From Bacteroidales bacterium (GTDB taxonomy: Bacteria > Bacteroidota > Bacteroidia > Bacteroidales > UBA932), in NCBI GenBank assembly GCA_017630215.1, contig JAGBVR010000005.1, positions 98,254 through 162,253 on the forward strand: a stretch of 64,000 nt of DNA, given 5' to 3'. The position numbers and the translations under genes were made by a program. The stretch's first letter is position 1, and each line of letters begins with the position of its first letter. Of the stretch, positions 21,658 to 25,949 are shown piece by piece. The notes below the pieces were generated by a model that saw only the letters and a program-made list of their open reading frames with translations, searched no databases and was not told the DNA's origin.

Positions 21658-22880
21658 AGCAACATATCTATCGCCCTATTCAGGCATTTAACAAAATATT
21701 CAGCTTCTTCCATAGTATTGTATGGAGCAAGTGAAGCTCTTAACATTCCTGTCACTCCGAATCTATCCATCAGAGGTTCTGCACACATCTGTCCTGATCT
21801 TACTGCCACACCCATCTTATCCATGATCAGAGCCAGATCTTCATGATGAACTCCATCCACAACAAATGAAAAAAGAGGAATCTTCTCATCAGATGTTCCA
21901 CGAGGAACACCAAAAAGTCTTATTCTCGAATCATTCCTGAGATAATCAAGAAGATAATCTCTTATTTCATCATTATATTTTATTAACTCATTATCACTCA
22001 ATAAGTTAGTAAAATTCAAAGCTTGTTTTAAGGTCGCTGTGGAAGCAAAATTCTGCGTTCCGGCCTCAAATTTCATCGGAAGAGGTGCATAAGTGGTTTC
22101 TCTGAAACTTACATTACCCACCATCTCTCCACCACCCATATACGGAGGCATGGCATCAAGCCATTTTCTCTTTCCATAAAGAACTCCCGTACCCGTGGCA
22201 GCATAGAGCTTATGTCCGGAGAAGACATAGAAATCGCAGTCAAGCTTCTGAACATCCACCTTGCAATGAACTGCTCCCTGAGCACCATCCACAAGAACGG
22301 GCACTCCTTTTGCGTGACATGTTCTGATGATTTCCTCGACCGGATTCACAATTCCAAGCACATTGGAAATATGGGTTACGGCCAATATCTTCGTTCTCTC
22401 AGTAAGAAGTTCATCAAGTTTTTCCAAAACCAGATGTCCGTCATCATCCACAGGAAGAACCTTAAGAACAGCCCCCTTTCTCCTGCACATCATCTGCCAA
22501 GGAACAATGTTGGAATGATGTTCTGCTTCTGTAACAATCACCTCGTCTCCAGCTGAAACAAAGGCCTCACCAAAACAGAAAGCCACAAGATTAATTGCAG
22601 CAGTAGTTCCGCTTGTAAAGACTATTTCCTCCCTGGCATCTGCATTAAGAAAATCCTTGACTGCATCTCTTGCATGCTCATATGCCTGGGTAGCTTCATC
22701 AGCCAGTCTGTGCACTGCCCTATGAATATTAGCATTGGACTCTGCAGTGATTCTGTTCCACTCATCTATTACAGTCTGGGGACGCTGACTTGTAGCCGCA
22801 TTATCGAAATACACAAGATTCTTTCCGTACACTTTTCTGGAAAGCGTCGGAAACATCGATCTTATGTCAATAATATTCAT
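21654..22880 (-). CDS. sufS: Cysteine desulfurase SufS
   Basis: The 408-residue PLP enzyme releases sulfur from cysteine for Fe-S assembly. It shows YFDNAATSQRP, HHSNIVPWQ, the PLP lysine in FSGHKLYAATGTGVLYGK, and the active-site Cys in VRSGQMCAEPLM (group II loop). It is first in the minus-strand run sufS-sufE-SufT-like-folK-glyS. A stretch coding for GVPRGT contains a parS-like sequence with one mismatch (21894-21909). Divergent from ruvA. Confidence 0.97.
   Translation of the reverse strand: MNIIDIRSMFPTLSRKVYGKNLVYFDNAATSQRPQTVIDEWNRITAESNANIHRAVHRLADEATQAYEHARDAVKDFLNADAREEIVFTSGTTAAINLVAFCFGEAFVSAGDEVIVTEAEHHSNIVPWQMMCRRKGAVLKVLPVDDDGHLVLEKLDELLTERTKILAVTHISNVLGIVNPVEEIIRTCHAKGVPVLVDGAQGAVHCKVDVQKLDCDFYVFSGHKLYAATGTGVLYGKRKWLDAMPPYMGGGEMVGNVSFRETTYAPLPMKFEAGTQNFASTATLKQALNFTNLLSDNELIKYNDEIRDYLLDYLRNDSRIRLFGVPRGTSDEKIPLFSFVVDGVHHEDLALIMDKMGVAVRSGQMCAEPLMDRFGVTGMLRASLAPYNTMEEAEYFVKCLNRAIDMLL
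21894..21909. promoter_or_regulatory. parS-like site with one mismatch, inside sufS
   Basis: TGTTCCACGAGGAACA differs from the palindrome TGTTCCACGTGGAACA at one central base. It lies in coding sequence for Val-Pro-Arg-Gly-Thr and is the outermost of three related sites in 2.5 kb. A weaker binding site is plausible; chance is not excluded for this copy alone. Confidence 0.45.
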
Positions 22881-22905
22881 ATTTAACTATAGTGCAAATA
22901 ACTCG

Positions 22906-22913
22906 CAAATTTA
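22906..22913 (-). promoter_or_regulatory. -7 box, promoter of the suf operon
   Basis: TAAATTTG on the minus strand 25 bases before the sufS start. A good -33 element is not evident. Confidence 0.45.
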
Positions 22914-22947
22914 GCAAAAACAATCTTTCTTTTACAGATTATTATCA

Positions 22948-22955
22948 TATTTTTG
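22948..22955 (+). promoter_or_regulatory. -7 box, promoter of ruvA
   Basis: TATTTTTG, with TTTC (22926-22929) at about the -33 distance. The start codon of ruvA is 58 bases downstream. It is divergent from the suf promoter. Confidence 0.5.
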
Positions 22956-23643: not shown

Positions 23644-23666
23644 GGAAAAATATACATATTTCAGTA

Positions 23667-23830
23667 CTGTCATTTCTTTCGCTGTCATTCAAGCGGCAAG
23701 CTTATTTCGACCGAACACAAATTGTCATTTCGACCAAACCCAAATTGTCATTTCGACCGAACGAAGTGAGTGGAGAAATCTTTTCAAAGATGTCTCGACT
23801 ACGCTCGACATGACAGGTGCAAACTGATAT
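23667..23830. repeat. Composite dispersed repeat between ruvA and mnmG
   Basis: It begins CTGTCATTTCTTTCGCTGTC and carries AAGCGGCAAGC. Three starts of GTCATTTCGACC(G/A)AAC follow, the last running through GAACGAAGTGAGTGGAGAAA. After a TTTCAAAG turn comes an inverted half ending TCGACATGAC. It closes with GTGCAAACTGATATAT. A similar 140-bp unit lies after hflX. Confidence 0.75.
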
Positions 23831-23849
23831 ATATTTATTTTAATACTAA

Positions 23850-25949
23850 CTATCTTCCAAAATAAACCAGAAGAACTGACACATCGGCAGGAGAAATTCC
23901 AGAAATTCTCGATGCCTGGGCAATAGTTCTTGGAGCATATTTCTTCAGCTTCTGGCGACATTCGATAGAAAGACTCTCTACTCTATCAAAATCAAAATCT
24001 TCAGGTATGGCGAGATTCTCAAGCCTCATTATCTTATCTGCCATCTGCTGCTCTCTCTGAATATATCCTTTATATTTTATAGCTATCTCGCAAGAATCCA
24101 AAACCTCCCTCCTATAATTGAAATTTACCTTTTCATTCATAAATGACGAGTCAAGATCAGAAACCGGATACTCAGTATTGAACTTTAAAACATAGGCAGC
24201 ATCTTTATATGATATATCTGTCTTATCAGAAAATTGACCAGCCAAAGAATCATAGTTACCATATTTCAAAAGATCCGAATAGTTAACCTCGTCAGATAAA
24301 AGACCTGATAAAGGCGATGCAAATGCAGAGTCAATATCGATATTATTCTTAATAAAAGTTCCACGTGGAACCATATTAAAAATATCTGCCAATTTTACTT
24401 GCGGGCGAGATACAAGATCTGAAATTCTCTTGCGCGAATCTACAATAGAAGATGATACTGATTCAAGATACGAATTGACCACTTCGGGCTTAAGAGGAGT
24501 CTTATCAAAAAACTCGATCATTTCAGAAGCAGTATCGTACTTTCTCATCGTATAATCATATCTGAATTTATCAGCTAAGCCTGCTTCGTAAGAAATCGGC
24601 GTAAGTCTGAAATCAGCATTATCCTGTCTCAGCAAAGTACGATATTCAGCTCTTGAAGTAAACATTCGATATGGTTCATCTACTCCCTTAGTGATAAGAT
24701 CATCTATAAGAACTCCGATATAAGCCTGATCCCTTTTCAAGATGAACGGATCCTTGCCGGCAACTTTCAGATGAGCATTCATACCTGCTATCAATCCCTG
24801 AGCAGCCGCCTCTTCATATCCTGTAGTTCCATTTATCTGACCGGCAAAATAAAGATTCTCAATGTTCTTAAGTTCGAGAGTCGGCTTCAACTGGGTCGGA
24901 TCGAAATAGTCATATTCGACAGCATAAGCCGGACGGAAAATCTTAGCATTCTCCAAGCCCTTGATCTTATGCAAGGCTTCCATCTGAATATTAAGCGGCA
25001 GAGACGAAGAAAATCCCTGGAGATAATATTCATTCGTTCCCCTACCCTCCGGTTCAAGGAAGAGCTGATGTTCGGTCTTATCTGCAAAAGTCCTGAGCTT
25101 ATCTTCAATACTTGGACAATAACGTGGACCTATACCGGTTATCATTCCAGAGAATAAAGGGGAATCACCAAAACCACTTCTCAGAATATCGTGAACTTCT
25201 GTATTAGTATGCACAACGAAGCAAGGCATCTGAGGAGTACCGTTCTGAGCAGTAGAAAGGAATGGGAGATATGAGAACTTTTCAGGATCCTCATCACCGA
25301 ACTGATGAAGAAGCTTAGAAGTATCGACAGATGAAATATCGATACGAGGCGGAGTACCTGTCTTCATCCTGGCAGTCCTGACTCCCATCTCGACAAGTTG
25401 CTGAGTAAGACCGTGCGAAGGCAGTTCGCCTATTCTTCCACCTTCGAACATATTGCGTCCGATGAAAAGCCGACCATCAAGGAAGGTTCCTGCGGTAAGA
25501 ATAACCGTCTGAGAATTAAATATTGCACCAGTTGTCGTACATACGCCCGAAATTTTCGAGCCATTGAAAAGAAAACCAGTCACAGAATCTTGGTAAAGAT
25601 CTAATTTACAGGCACTTTCGAGTATTTTTCGCCAGTACAGAGAAAACTGTATTTTATCACACTGCGCTCGAGGACTCCACATAGCTGGTCCCTTAGATCG
25701 ATTCAGCATTCGGAACTGAAGAGTAGAGGCATCAGTAATAATGCCAGTATAGCCACCAAGAGCATCTATCTCTCTGACTATCTGACCTTTAGCAATTCCA
25801 CCAATTGCCGGATTGCAAGACATCTGTGCATATTTGTTCATATCCATTGAGATTAGAAGCACAGAAGAGCCCATGCGAGAAGCAGCCATCGCAGCTTCAC
25901 AGCCGGCATGACCACCACCGACAACTATTACATCGTAATATTTATTCAT
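23850..25949 (-). CDS. mnmG: tRNA uridine-5-carboxymethylaminomethyl modification enzyme MnmG (GidA)
   Basis: The FAD-dependent enzyme modifies wobble uridines with MnmE. It shows the dinucleotide motif VVGGGHAGCEAAMAASRMG, SCNPAIGGIAKGQIVREIDA, GRIGELPSHG, MKTGTPPRID, GQINGTTGYEEAAAQGL and the C-terminal YAPRTIAQASRISGISPADV. At 699 residues it is clearly longer than the usual 620-635. The surplus is an insertion of about 75-80 residues after SRPQVKLADIFNM (starting near residue 527) and before EIAIKYKGYI. The DNA at the insertion's left edge, coding VPRGT, is a perfect parS-like palindrome. It is 1 base downstream of ybeY. Confidence 0.96.
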   Translation of the reverse strand: MNKYYDVIVVGGGHAGCEAAMAASRMGSSVLLISMDMNKYAQMSCNPAIGGIAKGQIVREIDALGGYTGIITDASTLQFRMLNRSKGPAMWSPRAQCDKIQFSLYWRKILESACKLDLYQDSVTGFLFNGSKISGVCTTTGAIFNSQTVILTAGTFLDGRLFIGRNMFEGGRIGELPSHGLTQQLVEMGVRTARMKTGTPPRIDISSVDTSKLLHQFGDEDPEKFSYLPFLSTAQNGTPQMPCFVVHTNTEVHDILRSGFGDSPLFSGMITGIGPRYCPSIEDKLRTFADKTEHQLFLEPEGRGTNEYYLQGFSSSLPLNIQMEALHKIKGLENAKIFRPAYAVEYDYFDPTQLKPTLELKNIENLYFAGQINGTTGYEEAAAQGLIAGMNAHLKVAGKDPFILKRDQAYIGVLIDDLITKGVDEPYRMFTSRAEYRTLLRQDNADFRLTPISYEAGLADKFRYDYTMRKYDTASEMIEFFDKTPLKPEVVNSYLESVSSSIVDSRKRISDLVSRPQVKLADIFNMVPRGTFIKNNIDIDSAFASPLSGLLSDEVNYSDLLKYGNYDSLAGQFSDKTDISYKDAAYVLKFNTEYPVSDLDSSFMNEKVNFNYRREVLDSCEIAIKYKGYIQREQQMADKIMRLENLAIPEDFDFDRVESLSIECRQKLKKYAPRTIAQASRISGISPADVSVLLVYFGR
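24358..24371. promoter_or_regulatory. parS-like site inside mnmG
   Basis: GTTCCACGTGGAAC is a perfect 14-bp palindrome identical to the core of the site at 23612-23627. It is read as Val-Pro-Arg-Gly-Thr in MnmG. It falls at the start of a segment that ordinary MnmG proteins lack. Confidence 0.7.

Follow-up and report, generated by a model that had tools for sequence, protein, structure and literature searches.

In a 64,000-nucleotide stretch of a draft genome of a Bacteroidales bacterium (GenBank assembly GCA_017630215.1, contig JAGBVR010000005.1, positions 98,254 to 162,253; referred to here as the window), three short sequences resembling parS, the binding site of ParB, lie in and between the genes sufS, ruvA and mnmG. 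These sites probably form a parS cluster that stands near the likely replication origin and that ParB is predicted to bind; its middle site lies at the apex of a perfect palindrome of 50 bp, which is likely to double as a two-way transcription terminator between ruvA and mnmG. The parS cluster itself is supported as real and is ordinary in kind. The parent contig, C45 in what follows (the window being C45:98254-162253), is 174.6 kb long and belongs to a 50-contig draft of 2.26 Mb that is 57.8% complete. Table 1 collects the coordinates of all the features concerned.

An earlier, sequence-only reading of this DNA had placed three parS-like sites within 2.5 kb, and all three were found where it had put them, as one exact 16-mer, one exact 14-mer and one copy with a single mismatch. 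It had further held that they match the parS consensus, which is borne out in that they differ from the 16-bp palindrome at 0, 2 and 1 positions respectively, and that they exceed chance. With up to three mismatches allowed there are four places in the window, whereas 100 dinucleotide-preserving shuffles average 0.17 (the largest count was 2, and none reached 4), by which chance is ruled out as the source of the three sites; the fourth place, at 48912, has three mismatches and itself looks like a chance match. The exact copy begins 11 bases past the ruvA stop codon. Where the earlier interpretation, supported as far as parS itself goes, proved incomplete is that the middle site lies within a long hairpin, and that the copy in the gene to the left of ruvA has one imperfect half-site. 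That gene encodes a cysteine desulfurase which we take to be SufS, a name that none of the profile libraries gave.

Table 1 Features of the window relevant to the parS-like cluster, in window coordinates.
Feature	Position	Strand	Description
parS-like site in sufS	21894-21909		1 mismatch, one perfect and one imperfect half-site; inside sufS (minus), reading ...GVPRGT... (codons VPRGT)
parS-like site between genes	23612-23627		Exact TGTTCCACGTGGAACA (0 mismatches); in the gap between convergent ruvA (+) and mnmG (-)
parS-like site in mnmG	24357-24372		Exact 14-mer at 24358-24371, two outer bases different; inside mnmG (minus), in frame ...MVPRGTF... (codons VPRGT)
Perfect palindrome, 50 bp	23595-23644		CTATAAAGTAAGAAAGGTGTTCCAC/GTGGAACACCTTTCTTACTTTATAG, parS at centre; starts within the last ruvA codons; predicted bidirectional terminator or 3'-end hairpin
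sufS-like cysteine desulfurase gene	21654-22880	-	Left of ruvA; Pfam Aminotran_5
ruvA	23013-23600	+	Pfam RuvA_N, HHH_5, RuvA_C
mnmG (gidA)	23850-25949	-	699 aa; Pfam GIDA, SAM_GIDA_C
ruvB	34961-36013	-	Pfam RuvB_N, AAA_lid_4, RuvB_C
Likely oriC	36014-36275		AT-rich gap (70%) separating the divergent genes ruvB and mfd, at the skew minimum
DnaA-box-like TTATCAACA	36061-36069	-	
DnaA-box-like TTATCAACA	36252-36260	+	
mfd	36276-39464	+	Pfam UvrB_inter, CarD_TRCF_RID, DEAD, TRCF

Allowing two mismatches, the whole draft contains 15 such places, namely the three window sites, one two-mismatch place on contig C50 and 11 on two small phage contigs (C31 and C39), while a reversed control pattern gives none at all. 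Three of the four non-phage places thus fall within 2.5 kb, and an even spread of sites over the genome, which a scan of this kind had been proposed to look for, is ruled out. At the same threshold the motif occurs in 34 of 41 genomes (the window's own and 40 relatives, 20 of the 41 being at least 90% complete), the 33 others having one to four places each; as the reversed-pattern controls give up to five places per genome in some relatives, a single two-mismatch place is not evidence by itself. Loci bearing sites were fetched from 28 of these 33 genomes, and tblastn finds mnmG in all 28. Two of the remaining five (G009 and G010) also have their sites at mnmG; in G002, where mnmG is cut by a contig end, and in G025 no site is in view at mnmG, while in G012, with one poor motif match, mnmG was not found. 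(G002, G009, G010, G023 and G025 are not among the matches listed in the motif scan; G023 is represented through its locus L082.) Within the genus mnmG stands beside ruvA and mostly also beside sufS, whereas in other families the sites are mostly just past the mnmG stop codon, before mnmG, or both.

The association with mnmG extends well beyond the genus. In a class-wide sample of 149 genomes the exact 14-mer occurs in 48, and mnmG lies within 1.5 kb of it in 26 of 30 loci examined, one of these being the window's own. A further set of 63 named loci was found with MnmG, some of them from other phyla (it overlaps the fetched set at L191, which is G024:C71, and L197, which is G021:C53, as judged by lengths and sites); the close kin among them are rumen and gut Bacteroidales metagenome-assembled genomes, two labelled Candidatus Cryptobacteroides, and the genus is taken here to be probably Cryptobacteroides. 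At least one site with up to two mismatches is present in 55 of the 63. Where both mnmG and ruvA occur (42 loci), the mnmG site is present in all 42, the intergenic site in 35 and all three sites in 26; for sufS the figure is 29 of the 40 loci having that gene in view. A site beside mnmG fits the old neighbourhood of origin and gidA. As a side observation, one locus of the class-wide sample (L390, G074:C24) has six exact 14-mers close to the end of a contig, at spacings of about 99 or 198 bp, with no mnmG in the locus, and its genome holds 11 copies of the 14-mer.

Evidence that the copy inside mnmG is maintained as DNA comes from its codons. Across 38 loci four of the site's codons show not a single synonymous change: GTT and GGA are found in 38 of 38, CCA in all 36 that have proline there and CGT in all 36 that have arginine, and of 413 five-codon windows the two with the greatest excess of codon identity are those covering the site. 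The outer base pair is complementary in a fraction of 0.33, against 0.37 expected, and being thus free it leaves the 14-mer as the working motif in this gene. In the sufS site, over 39 loci, three of the wobble bases hardly vary (GTT in 33 of 35, GGA in 32 of 32, ACA in 28 of 30), while those of the proline and arginine codons vary. The ACGT centre is missing from all 30 rows that carry a sufS site, although about a quarter would be expected to have it from shuffling the two sides, and the centre has changed at least 11 times; it looks as if this site is kept weak, an impression for which kinship is partly accounted for. One locus (L206) has a further imperfect sufS copy, and in two more distant members of the genus (L073 and L075) the core in sufS is perfect. 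Separately, the MnmG of the window's subclade is 699 residues long, and by tblastn about 75 of these (532-610), starting directly after the codons of the parS site, have no counterpart in several other genus members and families.

The palindrome around the middle site is the longest perfect hairpin in the window (loops up to 8) and also the longest among the convergent gaps of C45, where stems of at least 10 occur in 3 of 10 convergent gaps, 3 of 79 co-directional gaps and 0 of 13 divergent ones. As RNA it folds with predicted energies of -38.1 and -39.5 kcal/mol for the two strands (z of -8.0 and -9.6). Comparison of 37 loci shows that the left arm is mostly A-rich and the right arm T-rich, and that the actual arm sequences differ. 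At distances of 8-19 from the centre the fraction of paired positions is nonetheless 0.745, against 0.500 in shuffles that ignore kinship (maximum of 1000, 0.556), whereas around the coding sites it is indistinct from shuffling (0.382 against 0.388 for mnmG; 0.197 against 0.182 for sufS). Given that kinship is ignored by such shuffles, changes of pair were also counted on a tree of mnmG comprising 36 of the 37 rows (L249, which lacks a full mnmG, was excluded). Over positions 7-15 the tree calls for no fewer than 51 switches from one Watson-Crick pair type to another, the minima from 7 to 15 being 3, 6, 9, 2, 2, 3, 9, 8 and 9 for Watson-Crick rows. Perfect arms of at least 13 are found at 23 of 35 intergenic sites, at 0 of 42 mnmG sites and at 0 of 29 sufS sites. 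Within the window's 28-row clade 23 rows have them; in L198, L204, L205 and L213 a large part of the stem is paired, with some G-U pairs or interruptions, and in L203 the pairing is partial. Outside that clade, L216 is the one row of eight that has such arms. Long arms at parS also occur singly elsewhere (L231, L247, L401 and L402, with 14 to 16).

Further information comes from loci in which there is no intergenic site within two mismatches and a hairpin is present all the same. In L190 the right half of the hairpin is changed, in L201/L202 there is an unrelated 14-bp stem, and in L217 the hairpin surrounds a three-mismatch core; when added to the tree these fall within the window's clade (31 rows, support 99), and the first two are cases of a lost parS core, the third of a degraded site. 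(L201 and L202 are one isolate with an identical mnmG-ruvA gap, as L227 and L249 are likewise one isolate.) Persistence of the hairpin where the core has been lost implies that the pairing is kept apart from parS. What characterises an intrinsic terminator is here in part, in that a stable hairpin lies at the gene ends and is selected as pairing; the T run directly after the stem is lacking. Taken together, these observations suggest that the middle site is a parS that was likely co-opted into a bidirectional terminator. Two neighbouring features may be recorded here: a second long hairpin at 18648-18689, with a stem of 17 bp and a loop of 8 bases, which lies in a different convergent gap of the window, and, to the right of the palindrome at 23700-23825, an interspersed repeat with 14 matches in the draft including itself, six others of which are on C45.

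Turning to the position of the cluster on the chromosome, the cumulative GC-skew minimum of C45 lies at C45:134263, corresponding to window position 36010 and thus 12 kb from the sites, so that the comparison with GC skew that had been proposed for these sites comes out in favour of proximity. Skew was also read in three relatives over stretches of 340-400 kb, the nearest agreement being that in G013, with its minimum at 418064 and its sites at 427324, 9 kb apart. At the minimum of C45 the gap between ruvB and mfd, with its two DnaA-box-like sequences, is the likely oriC, judged from its sequence features. In 10 of 13 genus loci, the window's own among them, one or more boxes of this sequence are found next to where mfd begins, and mfd lies 8-32 kb from the sites in the 9 of 12 genus relatives searched that have both on one contig. 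In seven genomes of other families mfd is on other contigs than mnmG, which ties the ruvB/mfd origin guess to the genus.

As to the proteins that would use these sites, ParB (PF02195) is found in 37 of the 41 genomes and in all 20 of the high-quality ones, with a single match in each of the 37. In both ParB loci that were read a parA-like gene adjoins parB; parAB stand away from the mnmG sites. A ParB of G016 can be aligned with chains of Noc, Spo0J and ParB whose structures are known. In Caulobacter ParB, R173 contacts guanine 1, and R173 and G201 are conserved in ParB, as stated in PMC7383237. For 20 of the 37 ParB loci positions were mapped by a motif that matched 16 and failed to match 4; among the 16, fifteen have R where R173 would be, and all have G at the counterpart of G201. 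One ParB (L047, from G025 of family f2) has N instead of R; the mnmG locus of the same genome (L100), on a contig that ends about 300 bp past mnmG, shows no site. The condensin partners are another matter: ScpA (PF02616) was found in none of the 41 genomes, with 9 of 14 controls positive, and SMC_prok_B gave no match above cut-off in any of them, though weak partial matches in all 41, so that no genome of this set was found to encode the Smc and ScpA that an Smc-ScpAB loading site would call for. Likewise, PMC10197239 reports no known condensin in two gut Bacteroidetes. With neither ScpA nor a full Smc found, recruitment of Smc is unlikely, and the cluster most likely serves segregation driven by ParA.

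Several points weigh against the interpretation as a whole. PF02195 was not found in the window's own, 57.8%-complete draft, and the cognate protein is accordingly assumed from kin. The skew minimum comes from a single 174.6-kb contig in a draft of 50 contigs, and of the relatives G016 has a shallow minimum (224620, with sites at 210954, 14 kb away) and G038, from another family, a distant one (377744, with sites at 423207, 45 kb away). DnaA-box-like sequences with up to one mismatch number 59 on C45, and the densest kilobase, at 94 kb, has four of them, the putative oriC kilobase two. As regards the coding sites, the unrelated MnmG residues 112-116 rank third in codon identity, close behind the windows of the site, and the sufS site is outside the eight best of 220 codon windows. 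As regards the hairpin, the neglect of kinship in the arm-pairing shuffles has been mentioned; both the site and a long hairpin are missing from three loci with gaps of 9-26 bases (L220, L225 and L246, the first two lying outside the window's clade); a scan for consensus terminators did not list the palindrome; and there is no free T run after the stem, the T-rich stretch being the 3' arm itself, followed by GAAAAATA. In our opinion the scan is silent because the U-rich stretch lies inside the stem.

This silence is one of the points in favour of a simpler account, in which there is no terminator at all and the long palindrome is just a longer ParB-binding site within a plain parS cluster. ParB dimers do bind palindromic DNA, and here the palindrome is centred on the exact core. 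However, the arms vary in sequence from species to species and keep their complementarity, which is not how a protein site would behave, since a protein site would keep its sequence; in addition, none of the 42 mnmG copies has such arms, and in L190 and L201 the hairpin is there without a parS core. Between them these three observations rule out a palindrome made by ParB alone, and the account without a terminator is unlikely. The converse simplification, that the motif is not parS but a terminator stem joined by a coincidence of codons, would draw on the location of the middle copy at convergent 3' ends and on the stems in other convergent gaps of C45 (3 of 10), but it is very hard to reconcile with the invariant synonymous codons of the mnmG copy, the class-wide tie to mnmG, a consensus identical to known parS and kin ParB proteins with parS-type residues, and we give it very little credence indeed.

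It is also not inconceivable that the sites serve another protein of the ParB fold, similar to Noc, or a transcription factor, particularly as 15 of 16 kin ParB have K, a Noc-typical residue, at what is called position 184. However, according to PMC7383237 the Noc-binding site (NBS) has an A as its first base and a C as its sixth, while the sites here have G at position 1 and the exact copies A at position 6, the equivalents of R173 and G201 are parS-type in 15 and 16 of the 16, and each of the 37 genomes with any PF02195 match has only one. A Noc-type site is ruled out by these bases and residues, and users of this broader kind are very unlikely. Finally, there is the concern that a perfect 50-bp palindrome could be an artefact, as inverted repeats with zero spacer can arise in draft assembly. 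Against this, perfect arms of 13-25, with other sequences, recur at the same spot in further isolates that come from several projects, which rules out a palindrome made by assembly and leaves an artefact with next to no probability.

Compared with known systems, the cluster resembles the chromosomal parS of ParABS (consensus TGTTTCACGTGAAACA) in its 16-bp palindrome, in having several copies within a few kb, in lying near the skew minimum and in having some copies inside genes. It differs in the TGTTCCACGTGGAACA spelling, in the free outer base in mnmG, in the location of its middle copy within a long hairpin at convergent 3' ends, and in that ScpA was not found. parS clusters of gut bacteria including Bacteroides caecimuris have likewise been used together with GC skew to place the origin (PMC10197239), although the accessible portion of that paper gives neither their gene context nor any overlap with a terminator. 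With bidirectional intrinsic terminators the middle element shares the palindromic hairpin, the A-rich left and U-rich right arm and the facing gene ends; here, in contrast, the apex of the stem is parS, the U-rich part is within the stem and the hairpin goes unlisted in the consensus scan.

On the preferred interpretation, of a parS cluster whose middle site is shared with a terminator, ParB dimers would load at the mnmG and intergenic sites, with weaker loading at the sufS site, one half of which is imperfect, and would then spread as clamps, with ParA moving the origin region apart. Transcripts arriving from either side would fold into the same hairpin, with an ACGU loop, an A-rich 5' arm and a U-rich 3' arm, and would end there, which may in addition prevent RNA polymerase from running over the place where ParB loads. 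Loading of ParB would account for the exact core, the copies in coding sequence and the position near the skew minimum, while a two-way terminator would account for pairing that is retained as the letters change, for the convergent genes, for the A-rich and U-rich arms and for persistence of the hairpin without parS. It is tempting to go further and suppose that one element serves two machines, a centromere site built into a bidirectional terminator in which ParB occupancy and termination are coupled, in a clade that segregates its chromosomes without Smc-ScpAB; this is a speculative extension from the sequence and on balance doubtful. If it were true, convergent transcription would be halted right where ParB loads, ParB would help to block polymerase and the terminator would keep polymerase from stripping off ParB clamps.

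The phage contigs mentioned earlier deserve separate comment. Both L061 (G000:C39, 13463 bp) and L060 (G000:C31, 13498 bp) are phi29-like contigs binned with the window's genome, probably wrongly; each encodes a DNA polymerase (phrog_1907) and an upper collar connector, and in addition L061 has a terminase and L060 a major head protein. With up to one mismatch there are nine parS-like sites on L061, mostly in the TGTTTCACGTGAAACA spelling, and three on L060, the reversed control giving 0. Phage phi29 itself carries parS to enter spores, a point that the literature search did not find. Scans of viral_contigs found no relatives of the two phage polymerases. From 29 records with a related polymerase 11 were fetched (L371-L381), of which three have parS-like sites with up to one mismatch (2, 1 and 1), so that the nine of L061 stand out. 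The exact 16-mer is held by at least 120 stretches of the viral collection, among which L320 and L345 encode related polymerases. A 13.9-kb stretch of a 116.7-kb IMG/VR contig (L336) has 12 exact matches to four parS spellings, several of them in open reading frames reading MFHVKH or MFHVEH.

For the gut Bacteroidales, in which dnaA is a poor marker of the origin (as reported in PMC10197239), a parS cluster of this kind offers a handle on the origin region of uncultured members. In titles and the beginnings of abstracts of the open-access literature, most subscription literature lying outside the search, no description of a parS site overlapping a terminator was found, nor, in the open-access titles and abstract beginnings searched, any account of the gene context of parS in Bacteroidales. 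What is new is not the cluster but the partition site that overlaps a terminator-like hairpin and is kept by compensatory changes over dozens of isolates; such an overlap lets the sharing of DNA between ParB clamps and transcription, as well as the working of ParB-parS without Smc-ScpAB, be tested directly.

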